DNA from: Hexactinellida sp. DTS-2022
Taxonomy: Eukaryota > Porifera > Hexactinellida
Reading direction: 5' to 3'
NCBI GenBank assembly: GCA_028753945.1
Contig: JAPNXP010000006.1
Span: forward strand, 3,224,001-3,288,000
Length of the DNA: 64,000 bases
A program made the position numbers and the translations under genes. Every line of letters begins with the position of its first letter. Positions within the stretch are counted from its first letter, which is position 1. Shown here piece by piece: positions 6,693 to 60,689 of this stretch. The notes beneath the pieces were generated by a model, which saw only the letters and a list, made by a program, of their open reading frames with translations, searched no databases and was not told where the DNA came from.

Positions 6693-9433
6693 TTACCTTG
6701 GTAGGTGAGATAAATCAAACAGACGATGATCGATGTGAAAAGCGTCAGCAAAACTTATCAGGTGATCAATTAGTTCCTCTTCAGGACTTGATAGATCAGT
6801 TGCCTCTAGAAACTCGAGTTTTGAGAGACTACCAATCATATAAACCAGTGCTTTACATGATTCTGATGTATTATCGCAATGGAGTATGCTCAACAGGCGA
6901 AGTGCAGGGTGATAAGAAAGTTCCTGGCAGATGGATAGCACGCCAGTATCGTAGAGCGTGACGTTATAAAACCTCAAATCAACAAGAGACCTTAAGTTAT
7001 GCATCGTAACTTCCCATAGTGTGACATCATCAGATGGTAACACAATGTTCTCAAGCACTAGCTGAACCAAATTTTCGCACGATTTCAGATAATCGAGAAA
7101 AAACTCCAGCTCTCAAATCCAATGGTATCCAATGCGTATAACTTAATACCTTTTAGGGTATCTCTGTTCTTTTTAATGATATTCTGCAGATTAATGTGCA
7201 TATTTTTGTCTTCTGAGTTTACATCCCTTATCTGTAGGTAAGTTAGCTGAGAGAAGTTAATCAAAGCAGGCAATAGAGCATAGTCGTTTAATCCAACCTC
7301 TTTTAACTGTAGAAATCGGGGAACACACGGATAATGTCATCATGCAACCTAATGGGAACATCGTAAAGATGTAGGCCTTTTAATTGGGTAGCTTTGCACA
7401 GAGCAGGGATTAGTGTGTCAAAATGGTTTCTTTGAAATGTATCGTTATCAGGTGGGTATATAAATAAGATATCGAAATCAGTCAAATGGCTAATTAATTG
7501 TTGCGAAAATGGAGTCGAATAAATTGTATTATCCAGTCGTAAACTATTAGGAAAAGACTTGTAATCTGTCAAATTACAACTGTATAGTTCAATACTAACT
7601 TTAGTGCAAGACTTCAATCCTGTCTCTCTAATTGTTTCGGTATACGATAGGACTGTAGTGGAATCTTTCCCATCGAAGTACAATGCTAATAAATTAATTG
7701 AACAAATTCCCATTTCCTGTATTAAAGAGTGAAATTGAGTAGGATTGATATGGCTAGTGTCGATATAAATGAATTGAATTCGACAAACAAGTTTGAGAGT
7801 CTGAATAAAACAAATCCATTCATTAGGAGAGACTGATTCTAGTACATACAGATACACTGGCATCGGAAAGTGTTGTTTGAAGTTATTAAACCAAAAGGGA
7901 ATTGAATCTGAGTTAGTTTCGAATAAAATTGAGGCTAATTGGAAATAGATTTTGGTAAATAATTCCCAACCTTTACAGTGATATAATTCAGTGTGGTAAA
8001 AACCAGTGTAGTCAAGTTGATAGCTCATAGGCATATCGATTAGCTGAATGGGCTGAGGAGTCAGGTACCTGTATAGGATGGAAAGAAGAGCAGCTGCTTT
8101 ATCAGACAGGAGTCCACAGAGGAACCTGACTACCATTCGGAACAGAGAGAAGTTAGCCTCGGAGTGGGAAATATACCTAACACTGTAGCACTGCTTAATC
8201 CAGCTAGTGTGTTCTAAATAGAGGGCAGATACGAACTCCTGCATAGTCAGGTGGACAAATGTCCACACTTGTTTCATAAGTCCGACGGATTCCTTTTGGT
8301 AGTGCTCGTGAGCTAGATCCTGCCAGGTGTTTAGCTAGGTCCCTTGACCAATTGGCGCCATTTGGCAAACCTAAACAAAGCCATTTTGTGATGAATCCTG
8401 TCTCAATTTCTGCTGCATAATCATATCGTGTCGACTCCATTGAGTGCCAGTTAGTGTTGCGACAGGGAATCGATATTGAGTATCGAATTCCGACTAATTC
8501 TTTGTGACTGAATCTGAGAGCAGTTCTCTTTGACAAGAATGTCTTACCGCATCCCGGATTCCCGATTATGCACCAAATTTCAGGCTTTGCAGCATCATAC
8601 GCTAATAATTCTTCTGTAAAATCGACAGGGGTTATTTCTACCTCCTTATTTGCAATTTTTCTGAGGTATGCAATTTCATTATAGGTCGTTTCATCCTCCA
8701 TGTTTATTTCTCTGGGTTCCTCTTTTAAAATTGTTAAATCAACAAATACGCTTTCCAGGCTCACCAATTTATCCTTTCCAATCATTTGTTTAATATTTTC
8801 GAATTGTAATTTTGCAAAATCTCTTAGTTTAATTTCCCATTGTTCCAGTTCTTTTGCTTGTTTGTCAATTTCCTTTTTGAATTTGCTTTCAAACTCCCCT
8901 TCCTGCATTTTCGAGAATAAAGTAATGTAGACCTTTAATTGTACAACCACGTCATTTCTTTGGATTCCCACCAGGATCTTTGTCAGATTTATCAGGTCTT
9001 TCTGAATAAATCCGTTTTCCATCAGTTTGTTCATAGCCATCTCAAAACTTATATTCTCAATTGGTTCATTTGTCACTGCTATGTATATTAACGTCCATTT
9101 ATCCATAGGGATTTCATCTCTCAGTAGATTGATTAGAGTTTCGATTGACAGTTCCTCCTCTTGGAATTCGGTTTCCACTGGGGATGAGGCGCATAGCCAC
9201 TTCACATCACAAGCTATTTCTGACAAGTCGGGTCGGATGTGCTGTAGGGCCAGATAGAACTTGTGGGCGTCTCTGCCTTTCCATTGTTTCATTGCGATTA
9301 GGAAATTCGATTTTTGAGCTATATCTTCACACAATCCTTCTGGGATACCGATTTCGTTCTTGATTTGTCTAATTTCTTCGGATGTTAATTTGTTGTTTAG
9401 TTCCGTTAAGGCAGAGATCTCTTCGATTGCCAT
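6693..9433 (-). pseudogene. NLR-like receptor pseudogene (death-fold x2, NACHT P-loop, LRR-like tail)
   Basis: Reading from ATG at 9433 (MAIEEISALTELN; a possible splice acceptor lies just upstream) the protein has two helical death-fold or DED-like domains (about residues 1-90 and 95-170), a coiled coil (about 180-250) and a NACHT P-loop, GNPGCGKTF, near residue 290. The NACHT conserved block around LCLGLPNGANWSRDLAKHL follows, but the next recognisable block, WTFVHLTMQEFVSALYL, comes immediately and in another frame (break near 8280-8300). The Walker B/DGLDE part and winged-helix region are absent. Leucine-rich-repeat-like sequence continues to 6693 through further frameshifts near 7305 and 7090. 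The terminal CCAAG/GTAAAT could be a splice donor. Such proteins are innate immune or cell death sensors; this copy is unlikely to work. Confidence 0.85.
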
Positions 9434-9582
9434 TTCCGGAATTCTACACAAATAATGCGTTGGTTAAATTAAAGTTAGGCTAATTCTTTATACATACTCA
9501 AAAGGTGGTATATAACCAATGTGATAAATAATATTTTCTTCTAATACTGACATGGGGCACAAGTGTTTACATCTATGATCAT

Positions 9583-25459: not shown

Positions 25460-26543
25460 ACCGTTGCCAAAGAGAAAAACTCAACGAACTCTTAGCTGAA
25501 TATTCCTGTGTATTCGCTGAAAATCCAAAGAAGCCAGCCATTACATCGATGACAAAACATAAAATCGATACTAGGGGCTCTTATCCAGTGAAACAAACTG
25601 TTCGTAGGGTATCACCGGTCATGGAGGAGAAATCAACAAGCAGGTTGAAGACATGCTCGCTAATGGTGTTTGCCGGACTTCGAACTCTCCATGGTGTAGT
25701 CGGGTAATTCTGGTCTCAAAGAAAGACGGAAGCACAAGATTTGTTGTAGATTACCGCGACTTGAATAGTGTTACTACCAAGGACGCATACCCTATGCCGA
25801 ATCCCAAAGATATTTTGGACAGGATGCATAATAAAAGGCTCTTTACTTTTCTCGACGCCGCAAGCGCTTATTGGTGTGTTGAATTAGAAGAAGAGGATAA
25901 ATGCAAGACTGCGTTTGCCACACTCCGGGGACATTACGAGATGAATCGTATGGCATTCGGTCTTTGTAATAGCCAAGCGACATACCAGAGGCTCATGGAT
26001 GATAGTTTACGCGGAGTTAAGAATGCAGATTCCTACATAGATGACATCTGTATACACTCGGACAATTTTGATAGTCACCTTAAGGACCTACGCCAAACGT
26101 TGAGTGCATTGAAAAAGGCAAACATACAACTGCGACGCGACAAGTGCGTGTTTGCTGCCCGATCGGGTGAATTCCTTGGACATGTCATCTCTCAAAATGG
26201 GCGCCAACCTGTATCAAGGACAGTGGAAAAAATAGTTAATGCGCCTCACCCGAGGTGTAGGCAGGAACTACAGAGGTTCCTTGGCCTCGTGAATTTTTAC
26301 AGGGAATATATTCAGGACATGGCACATGTTGCTGAGCCCCTATACAAGCTTACACGAAAGGGAGTTGAAAGGGTATGGGATAGCCCTGCACAGAACGCGT
26401 TCTTGACCCTCAAGGATAAGCTAATTAAACATCCCGTAATATTGTCGTTTCCCGATTGGAATGATGACTTTACCTCCAGACTGACGCTTCATCAATCGCA
26501 GTTGGAGCTGTGCTTTCGCAGAAAGACAAACAAGGGAAATTAA
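25460..26543 (+). pseudogene. gypsy copy 2: reverse transcriptase
   Basis: The main frame runs from about 25653. RT blocks KKDGSTRFVVDYRDLN, FLDAASAYWCVELEEEDK, TAFATLRGHYE and the catalytic YIDD (in SYIDDICIHS) are intact, followed by FLGHVIS and the LQRFLGLVNFYREYI connection. A frameshift near 25650 separates it from upstream sequence (LLAEYSCVFAENPKK), and another near 26500 from RNase H. Copies RNA into DNA for retrotransposition in intact relatives. Confidence 0.85.
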
Positions 26544-27682
26544 GACCTTTAGGATACTCGTCTTCGGGCCTTAGAGCTGCACAAAGAGAGTACAGTGCGG
26601 GGGAGCTTGAATGTTGGGCGCTCATTGCTGCAGCTCGTAAATGGAGGTATTACCTGCAAGCGGCATGGAAAGTCGTGTTTTTGAGTGATCATAACCCGCT
26701 CCGGTGGTTGCGAAGGCAGAAGGATCCCAGAAATAAGTTTTCAAGGTGGATACAAGAGCTAGAGGCGATCCAGTATGTGAGAGGAGAGGAGAACGCAGCC
26801 GCAGATTACTTGTCAAGACTCCCTCGCGAGATAGATCAGAACGTAAACGATGATATCGATCATTTTGAGCGGCACTTATTTCCTATTTCCGATCAGTATC
26901 AATTATTATCGAGGATCAAAGAAGATTTACGCCTAGACAAGGCAACATCTCTCGCGCTAGCCCAGCTTGAGCATGGAGGCGTAATCTATTCGGGTAGATT
27001 CAAACGGCAACGTGGAATGCATCTGAGTGATGGGTTGCTTTATAGAGGTGATCAGGTTGTCGTACCTCACAGACTTAAGAATGAAATCCTTACACGAATT
27101 CACAATGATTCGCATCCCGGCATGGAGAAGACTATCGCGGAGACTAAGTTGCATTTCTATTGGAGGGGGCTATATTGCGACGTTGAGCGTTTTTGTGAAG
27201 GATGTCTGATATGTCAGAGGAACAAACCCAAGAACCGGCCTAGAGAACCTCTCGAACCGATTACAATCGCCGAAGAACCGAGACACGCGATTGCATATCA
27301 TATTGCAACCTTACCATGGTCCACTGATAGCCATCGGTATTTCCTTATAATGACTGACCTCTTTTCCAAATTCGTGGAAGTTTATCCAATGGCAGATCAA
27401 ACTGCCGAGTCCGTGTGTAAAGGTTTGCTCCAAGGTTGGATACACAGACATGGCCCTTCTAGGATCATGTTAAGCGATCAGAGCCCGAATGTCGATGGGA
27501 AGTTAGTTAGGGAAATGCTCGGCAGATTGGGAATTGAAAAACGCCGCAGCTCTCCCTACCACCCTGAGGGCGATGGCCAGGCGGAGAGGGGAGTTCAAAC
27601 CGTTAAACTGGCCATCCGCTGCCTTCTTGAAGAAAGAAGCATTGAGAAAGATAATATTGGCCTTCAATTCTATAGGAGGTGA
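26510..27682 (+). pseudogene. gypsy copy 2: RNase H and integrase
   Basis: RNase H blocks (REYSAGELECWALIAAARKW, SDHNPLRWL) are followed by an HHCC-type zinc region (HNDSHPGMEKT ... CEGCLICQ) and the integrase core. The second Asp (LSDQSPNVDG) and the Glu region (PYHPEGDGQAER) are visible. In the first core block, where Asp is expected, the sequence reads IAYHIATLPW, so His stands in for the catalytic Asp. A frameshift at about 27680 separates the C-terminus. Confidence 0.85.
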
Positions 27683-28374
27683 GCTACAACCTCAATTGCC
27701 TCCCAAGTTCCAGCACAGGATACCCGCCCTACACTGTAATGTACGGAGTGGCGCCTACGTCGTTATCTATGACCTGCTTACCTCGTTCGAAATGTGGGGG
27801 TGATAAGGTTACTACTCAGGAATGGTTGGAGGAAGTTACCAACGCACGAGGAGTGGTAAATAGTAAGGTTAACTCCAACCTTAGTGAGTCGCGTTCCAGG
27901 ATGAAGTCTAATTACAGATGTAGCGCCTCACCAACAAACATACAGGCAGGAGATAAAGTTCTTCTAAAAAATGAACCCAGGTCAGATGGGCTTGAACCCT
28001 GTTTTCGTGGGCCTTATACGGTGACCAAGCGAATGGGTGTTAACGTGAGAGTCCAGATCAATGAAAGGAAGGAAAAAGTTGTTCACTTAAATAAATGTAA
28101 GCTTTATCACCCCCCGCCTGATATGTATATCCCATTTCAACCAACACGCGAGATTCTACCATCATTCAGTACCCGAGAAGAGGTTGCAAGTGAGACCGAA
28201 ACAGAAATAGTACCGGAAAGTGAGAACGAGGAATCACCTGGACAGGTAACTATGCAGACGGTTCCCCTGAGGAGATCTGATAGGGATAGGAGGCCTCCTC
28301 TCAGGTATAGAGACGAAGACAGTTTTATTGTTCGAAGGAAAGTGATGTTGTGTAGTTCTTACTACCTGGCTTAG
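27679..28374 (+). pseudogene. gypsy copy 2: pol C-terminal region
   Basis: Continues the integrase (SSSTGYPPYTVMYG) into the C-terminal chromodomain-like or GPY/F-like region (FRGPYTVTKRMGVNVRVQI) and an acidic, proline-rich tail ending at 28374. The last part matches the end of copy 1. No env-like frame follows. Confidence 0.75.
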
Positions 28375-52974: not shown

Positions 52975-55900
52975 ATGGCAACTGGAGATAGTTACTATAA
53001 GCTTCGTGAAAATGGAACAATTGGTTTCGCCATAATTGTAGTAAATGAATTTGATGGCGAAGATCATCGAAGTGGCACAAAAGCTGAAATAAAAATGCTG
53101 GAAGAAATATTCTCAAAACTGAGATTCGAGACGATAATCTTTGGCGAGGTAACAATAAACGATTTTAAAGACAGAATGAACGCTATAAGAGACAACCAAA
53201 TCCTCAATGACCACGACATGATAGCCTTAGCAATCTGCAGCCATGGAAGAAAAGATGAGATACGCTTTCCTACAGAAAAGATCGTAAATAAAAATAAACT
53301 AAAACTTGAAGGTAAGATTAAGATAACTTTATTCATTTTAAATAAAAATGTGCTTGAACAATATTTATTTTTAATGTGTAAAAAACATAGATTCGTAAAT
53401 ATTTGTATTTTCATTATAATAATACATTGTTTAGCCTGTGGAGTATCATCAGCTAACAATCCAAATGATATTTGTCAAAATAAAGGTTTGTATACTTTTA
53501 AGCTTCCTTTTTGTTAGAAGATAGCTATGTTTACATCAATTTATTTATTCTTGTAGAGTGCGAATGTGAATATCTTACCGTTAAAGAAATTCAAGAAACA
53601 GTAATGTCCTCCTATTTAAAAGGTAATTAGGAATAGCCAATTTTTTCACATTTCACAAGCATTGCTTGCTTTCGTTTTCTTTTACTATGAAATTAATCCC
53701 GGTGTAACAGCCCAGATTATACCCCCGTCCTCGAATAACCCCGGGTATAATCTGTCCTAGCCCAGATTATTCCCGGGATTATTCTGTCCTAGGACAGAAT
53801 ATACCTGGGTATAATCTGGGCTAGGATAGAATATACCTGGGTATAATCTGGGCTAGGCCAGAGTATACCTGGGTATAATCTGGGCTAGGACAGAATATAC
53901 TCCCTGGCCTCATTATGTCATGTGCGAAAATGTGGTGCGTGTGGTGTGATAACTTATATATGTATGCATAAATGTTGCATGCAACATTGTAACATACAAG
54001 GTGCAACAATTTTGAATGAATATCGAACACTCAACAATTCGCATGAAATATCGCAAAACAAATTTGTATGCAACATTCCAAATATACGATGCAACTTTGT
54101 TCTACTATCAAATTTTCTTCGTATATAAACAAATAAACGTATGTCCCATCTCTAAGTTGAATAATTCTTGAATATAACGAATTATTCATGAACTATTAAC
54201 TTTTTGGCAAATTTGGGTATTCACGATATGGATAGTTTATTTGCAAAGTTTACCCGAAGAGAAGTTGAATTTGATCAAATATTTGTTCTCTTGGTAGTTT
54301 TAACAATCAATAATGGATTATTCGGCAAAAATAATAGTTTATAATCTATTCACAATTATTTGTCATTTTTTTCAATGAATTAGTACGTATTTAGTTATAA
54401 AAATTAAAACCACATAATATAAACTTGTGTTGGGTGTTTTTTGTTCAATCGTCATTCAAAATACAGTGGATGCCGGTTATAAGCACATCGTCGGGAACTG
54501 CACTTGATGTGCTTATAACCGGCATAATTTATATAGGGTATAATAACCGGTATATGGCAAGTTGGCAACCGTTTTCCAACATAGTGTTCTTATATCCGAT
54601 ATGTTCTTATAACCGGCGTGCTTATATCCGACATCTACTGACTACATATTTGGTAACCTACTACTACTGTCCCGTCCCGAAAATTGGGTATCTGGATTTT
54701 CCGGGACTGTCCCGTCCCGTTCCGAAAATTAGGCATACCCAATAAGAGAGGGGTATATTTTGGGCTAGCCCACTTCATACCCAGGGTATAATCTGTCCTA
54801 GCCCACTTCATACCCGGGGGTATATTCTGGCCTAGGACAGATTATACCCGGGTATATACTGATGGGGGGGTTAATCTGGGCTGCTACACCGGTACTTGAA
54901 TAAGAAACAATTCAATAAGGACCGAACTAACTCATCTTTGTCTTTACTCTCAAATCTTTACGGTGGTAACAGGGTATTACCTATCTCCGTATACTATTAA
55001 ACCACAAACCTGGGTGTATATATATATGTGTATATTTGTTTGTATGTTCCGAATTGATTGAAGAAAGTAGACGGTTTCCAAATGTGATTTTTGGCATATA
55101 GGGGTAACTTTTGGCACCTACCAACAAGTTGAGGTTTCCACCAGGGCTTTTCATGAGTCACCAAGTCACCAAGTCTGACTCGATAACGCGAGTCTTCAAG
55201 TCAATCAGATAATATATTTTGAGATTCATGGATTTTTCGAATTCTGAATATAATCAGATTAGTAAAAGAATATACAGGTGTATATTCAAATTTCAAATTG
55301 CTTATTCTTACACATCGATGACTCGCGAGTCCTGACTCAAGTCACCGAGTCATTTGACTCGTGACAAGATTTAATGACTCGATACAAAATTTAATGACTC
55401 GAGTAACCGAGTCAATTGACTCGTGATAAAATTCGATGACTCGAGTCACCGAGTCAATCAAGTGACTCGTAAAATCCTTGGTTTCTACTCGAATTTTCTC
55501 ACACCTCGACAAGTTATGACGTCATTGTCACATTTCGATAACCTTGAAAATTCACTTAATCGCACATAATTCCCGCCCTCTAAGAGATAAAAATCTGAAA
55601 ATTTAATAGAACATGGACATTAATGATGCGGACACGATGGTCACACCAGATCGCCAATATGCTTACTCATTGTCGCATTATGACGTAATCACTAAAATTT
55701 CACATTGTTAAATTTGACTATTTAGGCCGTTTACGCTTTATAATCAATGTTAGAATTATATAAACCACACACTAACCGCGAAGCGGTTGGTTTGTGTCAG
55801 GCTTGTCAAAAGGTCAGGTCATGACCTGACCTGAACTTTTTTAACTTGACCTCAAAGGGTCAACTCGGTTGGATTTAATTTTTCAGGTATATCAACGCCA

Positions 55901-57612
55901 CTTTTCCCACAAACGCGTTAAACGCGCCATGCCATTTAACGCGCTTTGATTTCAGAATGGAGTATATTTTTGCATAAAATGACGCGCTTAAGTATTGATA
56001 TCTCGCCCTTAAAGCGTCTCTACAAATTGACCTGAAATGACCTTAAATTGACCTGACCTGACCTGTATGATTTTTTCCACCATGACCTGACCTGACAATG
56101 CGGGACCATTTGACAAGCCTGGTGTGTGTGGTTGTGTTCTGTCGCGAAGCGACCTAGCAAGCGAAGCGACCTAGCAAGCGAAGCGCGCTAGAATTAATAA
56201 AAATAAAATTTATTTATTTATGGCTTTATAATACTATGTATGTAGATAAGCCAAAACTTATTATACTGAACGCTTGTCGAAAGATAGCAGATGCAATGGA
56301 ATGTAAAAGTGTTGGCGATAGATTTACATTATTTTCAACAAAATTGGGGCAGTTATCATCAAAGTAAGTTCAGAACTTCAGGAACGAGAATTATTTGAAC
56401 AAATCTTATATTTATAGGTTCAAGTTAAAAGAACAAGGATTTGTTCCAATGTTTTTGAGAAAACTTTATGAAGTGATAAACAATCAAAATCCTAATGACA
56501 TATTTGACTCAATAGCCGATAGGATTAATTACACTTATGATAAAGATGAACAGATGAAGAACAAATATGAAGAGCGAAGCGTTTTGGAAATATATAATGC
56601 AGAAAAAAAATTACGCCTTAGACTTCAAGGTCGATTGAAAAAATTTGATGTCTTATTTACTGAAAAAAATCTTAAGGAAGAACATGATTCGGACGTTTTG
56701 GTAACAGGGCCTAACAAAGAACTAATCATTCGAGGAACCAGTAGTGCTACGAGCATTGCATACAGTAATAACGATATACAGCCATGTTATTATATCTGTG
56801 ACCCTGAAAGGTCAAAAATTATTAAATTTCTTGCTGGTTTTAGTGGGGATGTGGAAATCACTATCGATTGTGAATTAAAGAGTCCTAGGTACATTCGATG
56901 CATTTCCCATGAGAATTTTATATTCATTTCACATGAATCAGGTGTGATAAAAGTGGACATATCAAAAGGAATCCTAGAAAATAAGCATGAAGCCGAAAAA
57001 TTATTAGGAGTTGAGGAATACATTTCACCATGTCTAGCTGCAAACGAAAATGATAACTTACTATTTATCCTTGATAGGTTTAGTCACAGCGAAAACAACA
57101 AAATGCGGAATATTAGTGTTTATAATATAACCGAGGAGAAAATTACGGGTACATATCCTATAACAATTGAGATATCACCAGGATTATTACTAGACAAATA
57201 TTGCAAATATAGCCCAATAATTAACGATATGAATTTCCGTCAATATAACCCTGAACATGAACAACAACAGTTATTAATTTTGGCTTATCTTCCATCGCCC
57301 TGTTTGATAATATACACAATTGGCAAAAAAGATCACATAGAATTCACACATCACTCGGAATTCTGGATAGAAGAACACTGTGAACCTTGTTTTATTGCAT
57401 CATTTCAAAATTATACATTAATGTCATGCCCAAATATTGATAAAAGTATTACCAAGCTCAATGATGAGAAGATAAATACAGATAAATGGTGCACGCAATT
57501 AGATATAAAGAACACTCAAGCTGTCCTAATTCATCAAGATGGAAAAGCGGTTATAACCGCTATTGAAGACAATAACTGTCTTATATACTCCTGGGATGGG
57601 ATGACCAATTAG
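52975..57612 (+). CDS. Caspase with C-terminal beta-propeller-like domain (five exons, about 588 residues)
   Basis: Exons: 52975-53311, 53435-53485, 53557-53622, 56246-56363, 56418-57612. All introns are GT-AG and every junction keeps phase, giving 1767 nt with the stop TAG. Exon 1 holds a caspase p20 start: Arg in HRSGTK (S1-pocket position), the helix-strand pattern around MLEEIFSKLRFETII, and the catalytic His in ICSHGRKDE. Exons 3-4 give YLTVKEIQ then KPKLIILNACRK, with the catalytic Cys where caspases have QACRG. p10 follows in exons 4-5 (DRFTLFSTKLG, GFVPMFLRKLYEVI). The S1 Arg of the WR motif appears to be Lys. There is no DED/CARD prodomain and the p20-p10 linker is short, with no clear Asp site. 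From about residue 265 the same exon encodes strand-rich repeats (SPRYIRCISHENFIFISHESG, AVLIHQDGKAVITAIEDN) typical of an NHL/WD-type propeller. This is the only large gene here without breaks. A separate-gene reading for the last exon is unlikely, because p10 lies inside it. Confidence 0.8.
53699..54892. mobile_element. TIR element with GGGTATAATCTG arrays, in caspase intron 3
   Basis: Ends CCGGTGTAACAGCCCAGATTA and TAATCTGGGCTGCTACACCGG (21-bp inverted pair with slight mismatch). Subterminal arrays of CCTGGGTATAATCTGGGCTAGG at 53720-53910 and 54755-54870. Nested pogo-like MITE at 54464-54640. Confidence 0.75.
54464..54640. mobile_element. pogo-like MITE, GATGCCGGTTATAAGC ends
   Basis: CAGTGGATGCCGGTTATAAG and CTTATATCCGACATCTACTG, TA on the left. 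Confidence 0.65.
55142..55480. mobile_element. hAT MITE family III (GACTCG array), long copy
   Basis: Ends CAGGGCTTTTCATGAGTCA and TGACTCGTAAAATCCTTG. The flanks GTTTCCAC and GTTTCTAC match at 7 of 8. The interior is a dense array of GACTCGAGTCACCGAGTC-type units. Confidence 0.85.
55798..56121. mobile_element. hAT MITE family II, copy 3
   Basis: Ends CAGGCTTGTCAAAAGGTC and GGACCATTTGACAAGCCTG. The flanks GTTTGTGT and GTGTGTGG agree at 6 of 8. It contains the CGCGTTAAACGCGCC core also seen in copy 1. Confidence 0.85.
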
Positions 57613-57802: not shown

Positions 57803-60689
57803 CATAGCTTACTATATACAGTTATGAAACTTACCGAATACAAGGCCAGTTTATTTATTTAATGATACTATATGTACTTACTTCATGCTAAATTATTCAC
57901 TTCGATGTTTATAATAACAAAATTCCCACATCAAAGAAGGAATTTAGATTAATCGTGGTGAAATTTTTCAATAATTCGTTGGCGGGTCTTGATTTGCTTC
58001 AATTCATCATCCTTTCTTTAGCGTCAAATTTGGTTTTTTCGTATGGTTTCAGAGATTCAGAGATTTACTTGAGTGTGCAGAGTATATAAAATGAGCATCC
58101 CAATTCTGTGAGATTTCATTGAGCAACTGTGACCCAAGATTTTCCATAGAACTGTTGTGTGGTATTTTGAGACGCCTATATGATACACTCTATACACCAT
58201 GGATGTGCTATTACAAATTACACTGTGGTATTTTGAACACATACAAACTAAAGTCTAATACTCTTCTTTTAATTAAATAATTCTACACTTAATCTGAATC
58301 CATATCCCCCAATCGTATTATCGTTTGTTTTAATTTTCTGATTTTTTTTTAATGCTTTTTCTCGATTTCCCATTCCGCCCTTTTCATATCTATATACGCT
58401 TTATGTTCATCAATCATCTTACATGTCTCTCCCATCATGCTCATTTTTTTCCCTCGTGTTCTTTTCGCATCTGTTCAATGAATTCAATATAGTATCTTTC
58501 TGAAGAATCCATTATAGCTGTAATTACTTTTGCATATTTCATGTGGTATTTATAGTTGTAAGTTGTAAATCATTGTAGCACAAAACTGAGTCATGAAACT
58601 TTCAAAACGTAATTTTGGACAAGTGCACACATTCTGGAAGTTTAAAAAGCTTCCTAAGTAACACGATATCTAATCTATCTAATTACTAGTTTATTTTCTT
58701 ATTTCTCTCTCACCACTTTGTTTGGCTACAATACAGCCTTATTACTCCCTGATTATATTTTTGATTATAAAAATTCTGTCTAAATAAAAGCAATTTATAT
58801 TTAAAATTTACTTTTATCACCCTGTTATTAAGATTAGCCACTACATTATGCATTGATATCTGTTATTAATAAATTTAATGGGAAATATCAGAATAACAGT
58901 TTCAGAAAGATGTAATAAATATACCACATAATTAACGTGTAAAGGATATATATAAAACTAATCCATCAAAATACACAAATTCATGACGGGAACTACTTGT
59001 TCTGGCTTGTACAATGTTCAGGCTCGATTTTTCTCTCAGAGTAATAAGATAAAATGTCTTGATAACTGCCTGTTAGTAAGCTATATGGAAAGATAATTGA
59101 TTATTCTGTGAAGTAGTGTTAATTAATTAATTGATTAATTAATAAATAGTAGGTTGGTCCCTCAGGGCTGCAGCTAGCTACTAAAGATTAGTTTCGCTGT
59201 GAGTGCACTTGGAACACACTCTGTACCTTTCCCCAACCGCGAGCCTAACGGTTGAGGGATGTCAGGAGCTTACCTGAGAACACATAACTTATCTCTTGAC
59301 ACCATTAGCGGGACCTAGGCTCAGGACAATTTAGCCATTACATGAGACTGAGGGATGTATTAATTAAACATAAGGTTTAATACAAACTATGATGACACAA
59401 CGAGAGTCTTAACTTAGCTAACTGAAAGAAATTGAAATTTTGGCTAGTTATTATCTCAGTATTTCACAACAACCACCAAATTATAGCCAGACATATGTAC
59501 TAAAATTAGATACTCTTTTTTATGGCATACTACAGCGCTATATAACAATTATTAATTAATATCGTTTCTATTATTAAAAATAAATATTTAGCAATATGTC
59601 ACTGATAATATTTGATTAGAATGTAGAAAAATGATTATGCAAATTACTTGTAAACTCCCTTCCTTGGTCGTGTTGAATAATATCGGGTAATCCCATATCG
59701 AGGTAGATATCCTTAAGATTCTGGATTACTTCTTTTGATGTCTTCGACTTGAGAGCGCGCACTGCAACGTATTTGCTCAGATAACAAACAGTGACTAAAA
59801 TGTGTTTATATCCATCTTTGCTCTCAGAGAAATCACATATAAGGTCCATTCCTATATGTTTCCACGTTTTAGACGGAGGTGGGATTGGTTGGAGCTTCTT
59901 TTGCGGTTGTGGTGGCAAGGCCGCTGTCATCTGACATGTATGGCAAGTCCTTACCTTTAGTATACAAGAAAGTCATTATAATATGGCATTTTTTAATAAT
60001 TTTGCATTAGTTACAGCATCGATATCTAATTACACCATTATATAAAATTCGTAAATGGTTAATTGAAGTTAACTGTTATAAAAATAAATATAAAAACAAT
60101 TTGGGATCTTGCGAAATCATGTTAGTGCTATTAGTCGTCAAAATAAAATGCTTTACTAATTAGACAATCTAGAACTGTATAATTACGATTACAGCAAATG
60201 GATGATTCAACTGAAATGTTCCACTAACACTGCATTATAATGCTATTTTGGTATGTACATCAATTAGAATAGAAATATAGTAGAACTCGATTAACTAAGG
60301 CGTACCTTGGGAAACAAGACAGTATGTACTAACCGAGGCATGTCTTATCCGTATGCATAATCCACAGGTCGAAGTACTGACTTGTTCAATTGTGTAAATA
60401 CGATGTAATACAAGTCTTCAAACATACTTAACGATACCAAGTGTTTTGGTTGTCACGTACTCAGACAATCAAAACACTAACGGAGTTCTGCTGACAGATT
60501 TCTAGAAATTGAAATTAGTACGTCTGATTCGAGTATGTACTGTACTGAATTGATAATTGCAATGCAATTTACCCAGTAATTGTAAAATAAATCAAATGAA
60601 TATATCTACATAACATTACAAATTGATTTTAATTGAAATAAATCGAACTAATAGTAGGTTAAGGGATAATATATATATATATATATATA

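Follow-up and report, generated by a model that had tools for sequence, protein, structure and literature searches.

Can a beta-propeller fused to the C-terminal end of an animal caspase serve as its sensor, and how would such an enzyme be turned on? Animal caspases are normally recruited via N-terminal death-fold domains, and a preliminary description, made from the sequence alone, had proposed another arrangement for a gene of the sponge Hexactinellida sp. DTS-2022, namely a caspase fused in frame to a C-terminal, propeller-like domain. This gene lies in the window analysed here, a stretch of 64,000 nucleotides (assembly GCA_028753945.1, contig JAPNXP010000006.1, positions 3,224,001 to 3,288,000 of the forward strand) whose own numbering is used below. 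The caspase-propeller gene, at 52975-57612 (+), is real. Judging from the sequences, its product would be an active, single-chain, proximity-activated caspase, with an NHL-type C-terminal propeller as sensor or targeting domain, a reading to which we give a probability of about 0.58.

By sequence comparison, the gene belongs to a set with at least five members in this genome, itself included, and with relatives in Oopsacas minuta and in ENA. Conserved C-terminal-propeller caspases would show another sensor-to-caspase wiring, in early-branching animals, and the family would supply a natural single-chain, linker-shortened caspase for direct tests of ligand-driven activation.

A Single Gene, Conserved in Oopsacas minuta

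Re-splicing of the five exons gives a product of 588 residues plus a stop codon (1767 nucleotides), with GT-AG borders at all four introns; the exons, phases, coordinates and product length that had been proposed are all exact. The p10 part of the caspase had been placed in the same exon as the propeller. This holds for the rest of p10, which is in exon 5, but not for its start, which is in exon 4, so that p10 is not wholly within the propeller exon. In the last exon, the reading frame is open over 414 codons, from stop to stop.

Relatives of the product were searched for among about 5.8 billion proteins, using searches that detect just those relatives sharing short exact words. The first search yielded four matches at E ≤ 1 among 7345 candidates (P0001-P0004), and a later profile search six matches at E ≤ 10 among 4883 candidates. 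P0001-P0003 (ENA, 365-383 residues) are 55-71% identical to the exon 5 part, and the profile search added P0005 and P0006 (43-44%). P0004 is Oopsacas minuta LOD99_5826, a protein of 567 residues named in its sources hypothetical protein or caspase family p20 domain-containing protein. It has the same domain order as the window protein and aligns with 99% of it at 39% identity, and the caspase-propeller fusion is therefore conserved. Like the window protein, P0004 has a caspase, a linker and the same C-terminal domain, as well as the same Lys in the S1 pocket and the same short p20-p10 linker; it differs by having kept NACRG at the catalytic Cys. Aligned residues cross the exon joins in both species, with KDKPKLIILNACR at join 3 and LSSKF at join 4, exon 2 being weakly matched. 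The identity between both proteins is 97/242 (40.1%) in the caspase part and 115/265 (43.4%) in the propeller part, the near-equal conservation that is expected for one gene.

These results bear on the possibility that the gene model is an artefact, joining a decayed caspase to a separate, neighbouring propeller gene. The 2.6 kb of intron 3, with short repeats recognised by eye between exons 3 and 4, would be compatible with such a junction. It is nevertheless extremely unlikely, as part of p10 shares an open exon with the propeller, one annotated Oopsacas protein covers all the parts, and sister genes hold both domains in one open frame.

Sister Genes in the Same Genome and Beyond

The preliminary description had suggested a search for the same architecture in related genomes, and this was found in Oopsacas minuta and, within the genome of the window itself, in at least four other genes. 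This genome (112,398,167 bases, 18 contigs) contains 64 caspase matches at E ≤ 0.001, each exon being counted separately. Twenty caspase-bearing frames, from 17 of 20 regions (L016-L018 being left out), were scanned with Pfam. PF00656 was present in all 20, as expected since the frames had been chosen by their caspase match. NHL was found above its curated cut-off, C-terminal to the caspase, in the open frames of L024 (P0007), L027 (P0008) and L028 (P0009). The frame of L023 (P0010) has no Pfam match after its caspase, but this part matches the sister propellers (hhalign probability 93.6%, E 2.1e-7). With the window gene, the genome thus contains at least five caspase-propeller genes, a lower bound because just part of the caspase-bearing regions was scanned, and the idea that the window gene is a lone oddity was discarded in view of these sisters.

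A profile search with the sisters gave 16 matches at E ≤ 0.001 among 6971 candidates. The ENA proteins P0011-P0015 cover 94-97% of the sister query; a caspase is present in 5/5 and a precomputed NHL in 4/5. Among the best 60 of 172 PDB matches of P0009 are caspase-3 (E 1e-15) and the NHL domain of TRIM2 (2e-11 over the full sequence, with none of the individual stretches below 0.01). The sisters P0007-P0010 and P0011-P0015 resemble the window protein in having the caspase first, the propeller or NHL last, and an Asn before the A/G/F-C-R motif. They differ from it by a longer linker and by an Arg at the second S1 position, and the copies of its own genome are single open frames.

A tree was built from 29 caspase domains (P0012 left out, no metacaspase among the rows), and in it the window protein and P0004 form a pair with 100/100 support. 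This pair nests at 99/99 in a set of 11 rows that also contains the sisters, ten rows having a C-terminal propeller and one, P0016, SH2 instead; inside this set it groups with P0008, P0009 and P0014 (88/90). Several long rows, which lie outside the set, were flagged by the tree program.

Two of the sisters, at L027:4425-6164 and L028:4238-5941, lie about 12 kb apart on contig C1. Their propellers are 97.7% identical (260/266) and their caspase domains 60.0% identical (147/245), which could reflect either gene conversion of the propeller or a faster change in the caspase half.

The Caspase Domain and Its Active Site

The spliced protein matches PF00656 at residues 17-237 (E 5.7e-14, 52.8 bits for a cut-off of 21.4, profile positions 2-220 of 233), and this is the sole Pfam family on it at E ≤ 10. 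Exon 1 by itself is recognised as caspase with E 4.2e-6 in the whole-genome profile search. A single-sequence PDB search was weaker, with a best E of 0.003; all 27 distinct matches at E ≤ 1 are named caspases.

The catalytic dyad, His90 (SHG) and Cys162 (NACRK), is present. After CR, the window protein has a Lys and P0004 a Gly (NACRG). The canonical S1 pocket residues of caspases are Arg, Gln and Arg. In the window protein the first Arg is kept (RSGT), the Gln is replaced by Asn and the second Arg by Lys. This Lys, already suspected in the preliminary description, is shared by P0004, the sisters having Arg. An Asn precedes the A/G/F-C-R motif in all 11 members of the caspase set, where the caspase consensus has Gln.

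Other known types of caspase were considered. No DED/CARD prodomain was found: 16 residues precede the caspase match and no other Pfam family matches at E ≤ 10, unlike in DED/CARD initiator caspases. An Acropora-like tandem caspase was rejected because Pfam detects a single caspase domain, and a caspase-WD40 protein because there is no WD40 match at E ≤ 10.

The p20-p10 Linker

The linker was measured as the distance that separates the first p10 strand from the catalytic Cys, with endpoints at hand-picked motifs. This distance is 20 residues for the window protein, 21 for P0004 and 33-44 for nine sisters. It is thus 12-24 residues shorter than in the nine measured sisters, which bears out the short linker noticed earlier and extends it to Oopsacas.

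An Asp is present exactly at Cys+12, as far from the Cys as the processing site of caspase-3, in 8/9 measured sisters (the exception being P0010), including 7/8 of the propeller sisters measured, and in neither the window protein nor P0004. It is not a general feature, as it was found in one of the seven further caspases that were measured. The window protein has an Asp at Cys+5 and a second one at Cys+14, bordering the p10 strand, and P0004 also has an Asp at Cys+5 or +6. The earlier statement that the linker lacks an evident Asp site is thus right for the Asp at Cys+12, but an Asp does occur 5-6 residues past the Cys in both species. At this position, it is probably too near the active site for processing.

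The C-Terminal Domain

The C-terminal domain comprises about 290 residues and most likely forms a beta-propeller of the NHL type, similar to that of TRIM-NHL proteins. For the window protein, this domain gave no result in Pfam or PDB searches, the single PDB match being 4hw6 (E 1.4), and the corresponding domain of P0004 has no NHL or propeller name and no Pfam NHL match. With hhalign and shallow sister alignments, an E of 0.12 was obtained, and the global mode was also without result. The signal came solely from deeper sister profiles.

When the window family was compared with the deeper profiles of the sister propellers, the hhalign score was 34.1, versus a mean of 15.1 for 100 column shuffles (sd 2.7, maximum 25.4) and 16.5 for the reversed profile. 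The sister propellers are related to those of coiled-coil-NHL frames of the same genome, described below. With the profiles of both groups together, the score rose to 37.4 (60 shuffles: mean 14.8, sd 2.0, maximum 20.3; reversed 14.4), and with the coiled-coil-NHL frames alone it was 25.9 (shuffles: mean 14.9, sd 2.4, maximum 20.6). A purpose-written profile aligner gave 41.3 versus a mean of 21.1 for 25 shuffles (sd 4.5, maximum 34.8).

Six putative blades, which would form a closed ring, can be placed by sequence alignment in register with the sisters. Blades 4-6 are assigned by alignment register, length and the shared C-terminal end. The propeller proposed in the preliminary description is supported by the recurrent caspase-propeller order and by the profile match over blades 1-3, blades 4-6 being undetected.

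Proposed Mode of Action

As the His-Cys dyad is kept, the window protein is probably an active protease. As much of the linker is lost and the Asp at Cys+12 is absent, activation most likely involves a single chain rather than linker cleavage; proximity-activated caspases do not depend on such cleavage. The enzyme would then work as a single chain, with an intact linker, and would be turned on by proximity or dimerisation. The propeller could bind a ligand or a partner and thereby pair two caspase domains or, alternatively, guide the enzyme to what it cleaves. One polypeptide would then contain both the sensor and the executioner, without any death-fold adaptor.

Several observations weigh against this reading. 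In the caspase domain, NACRK and the Lys at S1 differ from the canonical active site, so that activity may be altered or lost. The stem of the window protein and P0004 is very long in the tree (3.52 changes per column), and the place of the pair inside the set is less sure because of it. As for the C-terminal domain, Pfam finds no NHL in the window protein; the hhalign probability is 28.9% with the sisters, 51.3% with the sisters and the coiled-coil-NHL frames, and 4.3% with the latter alone; and blades 4-6 alone score 14.9 versus a mean of 17.2 for 40 shuffles, the match covering blades 1-3.

The drifted active site, together with the presence of Cys-less caspases in the genome, makes a FLIP-like role the main rival. 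The window protein would then be a pseudo-caspase or a caspase of low activity, pairing with active sisters via p10, like c-FLIP with caspase-8, under the control of the propeller. The long stem of the window and Oopsacas pair would fit such a role, as would NACRK, the Lys at S1, the shortened linker and the caspases of this genome in which the Cys is replaced (by Trp in two frames of L041 and by Asn in one of L042), which match P0016. As both His and Cys have been retained in the two species despite about 40% identity, we consider this role rather unlikely.

It is very unlikely that the C-terminal domain adopts a beta-rich fold other than the NHL propeller. The missing Pfam NHL match, the undetected blades 4-6 and an hhalign probability of 51.3% at best would be in line with another fold, but blades 1-3 score far above shuffles, and the domain follows a caspase of this set just as the sister propellers do, with a similar length and the same C-terminal end in the alignment.

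Finally, the propeller could target a constitutively poised caspase to a substrate or a location, without any gating. NHL propellers are in general protein- or RNA-binding scaffolds, and our present results show no switch, which both speak for simple targeting; we nevertheless regard it as quite unlikely. The single-chain, proximity-activated caspase bearing a propeller as sensor or targeting domain is the reading that we retain in what follows.

Comparison with Known Systems

TRIM-NHL proteins have RING, B-box and coiled-coil domains before NHL. TRIM2, TRIM71, Brat and Thin, all of them PDB matches of the coiled-coil-NHL frame in L037, share the NHL-type propeller with the window protein; the latter differs by the caspase in front, no other Pfam family being detected at E ≤ 10.

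The closest architectures described in the papers cited here combine other domains. TNFR-caspase and LRR-caspase hybrids have been reported in amphioxus (PMC2575513). In these, as in the reading proposed here, a sensor or receptor is linked to the caspase without an intermediate, an arrangement that the authors propose to be a shortcut; they differ in their sensor domains, and the term NHL is absent from the main text of that paper (PMC2575513). Metacaspase-WD40 proteins of cyanobacteria also bring together a caspase-fold peptidase and propeller repeats in one protein, but these are a prokaryotic metacaspase and WD40 instead of an animal caspase and NHL (PMC2853523). Caspase-X of Acropora, a non-bilaterian animal, also departs from the usual caspase architecture, but it combines inactive with active caspase domains in tandem, a glycosyl-transferase being present in some (PMC4715348). 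In addition, TRADD-N proteins, some of which end in WD40 propellers, have been reported to be expanded in marine animals, most of all in the sponge Amphimedon (PMC8195603).

No caspase-NHL protein was found among the matches listed in literature searches of titles and abstract openings, in which subscription journals are sparsely covered. In the Oopsacas genome paper, the words "caspase" and "apoptosis" each occur 0 times (PMC10280926). Sensor-caspase fusions are thus known with other sensors, and what appears to be new, as predicted from sequence, is a caspase joined to an NHL-type propeller.

Exons and Introns of the Gene

Exon 1 (52975-53311, +) contains the start codon and the greater part of p20, in which the S1 residue Arg32 (RSGT) and His90 lie, as identified by Pfam and by homology to P0004; the codon of His90, in the SHG motif, is CAT at 53242-53244 (+). 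Intron 1 (53312-53434, +; GT-AG) is open in frame and 123 nucleotides long, a multiple of 3, so that its retention would keep the frame. Such retention is possible, yet P0004 has no matching insert. Exon 2 (53435-53485, +) encodes 17 residues of a weakly conserved p20 loop region, and exon 3 (53557-53622, +) 22 residues of the p20 segment that precedes the catalytic strand. Intron 3 extends over 2.6 kb (53623-56245, +). At 53700-54880, runs of a short imperfect repeat based on 'cccgggtataatctg' were seen by eye.

Exon 4 (56246-56363, +) encodes Cys162, whose codon is TGT at 56275-56277 (+) in the NACRK motif, the short linker and the first p10 strand; the codon of Lys191, the residue at the second S1 Arg position, is split over join 4. 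Intron 4 (56364-56417, +) is a phase 2 intron of 54 nucleotides. Its position is probably conserved, because P0006 reads unrelated residues up to the start of exon 5, such as would come from a read-through intron. Exon 5 (56418-57612, +) comprises the remaining p10, up to the end of the Pfam match at residue 237 (56418-56556, +), a charged linker joining p10 to the propeller (56557-56727, +), and the putative NHL-type propeller with the stop codon (56728-57612, +), in which six blades are placed by alignment and blades 1-3 are statistically supported. No second match to exon 5 was found in the genome at E ≤ 1, so a repeated or recently copied exon is unsupported.

Other NHL and Caspase Genes of the Genome

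The NHL search of the genome gave 150 scored matches out of 2268 first-look candidates, a few frames being matched twice, and most matches are in open frames of about 400-440 residues. In all nine frames inspected by eye (L030-L038), a coiled-coil-looking front of about 140-170 residues is followed by a propeller. NHL was above the Pfam cut-off in 5/5 of these nine frames that were scanned; the sole coiled-coil family found on the scanned fronts, TRIM_CC in L030, did not reach its cut-off (E 0.0015). This large set is a possible receptor-like expansion, and a literature search for an NHL expansion in Porifera found no paper.

One tentative and rather doubtful possibility is that these genes form a cell-death or immune circuit of these sponges. 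NHL sensors would be provided by more than 100 frames, many of them probably coiled-coil-NHL, and each caspase-NHL protein would be able both to recognise and to execute, with no need for death-fold adaptors. The lineage of the window protein would have become purely ligand-gated and single-chain, having abandoned linker cleavage.

Other caspases of the genome show further arrangements. In L040 (C5:973500-978500), caspase and SH2 pieces lie in order and match the caspase-SH2 protein P0016, and we infer that they form one gene; just downstream, a frame seems by eye to start a coiled-coil-NHL gene. The pseudo-caspases in which the catalytic Cys is replaced are located at L041:2256-2849 and L041:5210-5818 (Trp) and at L042:3940-4458 (Asn). 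In L025:5115-7829, immunoglobulin domains precede the caspase domain in one open frame, which has a very long branch in the tree. Long single frames with Roc before a C-terminal caspase are found in L011, L012, L014, L015 and L021; L012 has Roc and COR-A below their cut-offs, and L011 has CARD.

In the window itself, ten frames were scanned. Four of them match parts of retroelements, in one case below the cut-off, and two show weak NLR-like similarity that does not reach the cut-off. The latter two overlap at 7303-9463 (-), with NACHT (E 0.005) and NLRC4_HD2 (E 9.3e-5), and may belong to an NLR-like gene or its remnant. Retroelement frames with reverse transcriptase, RNase H and integrase lie at 25608-28374 (+), and the element is presumably Ty3-like. 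About 2 kb downstream of the caspase-propeller gene, at 59616-59972 (-), an integrase core is matched just below the cut-off (30.0 versus 32.6 bits).

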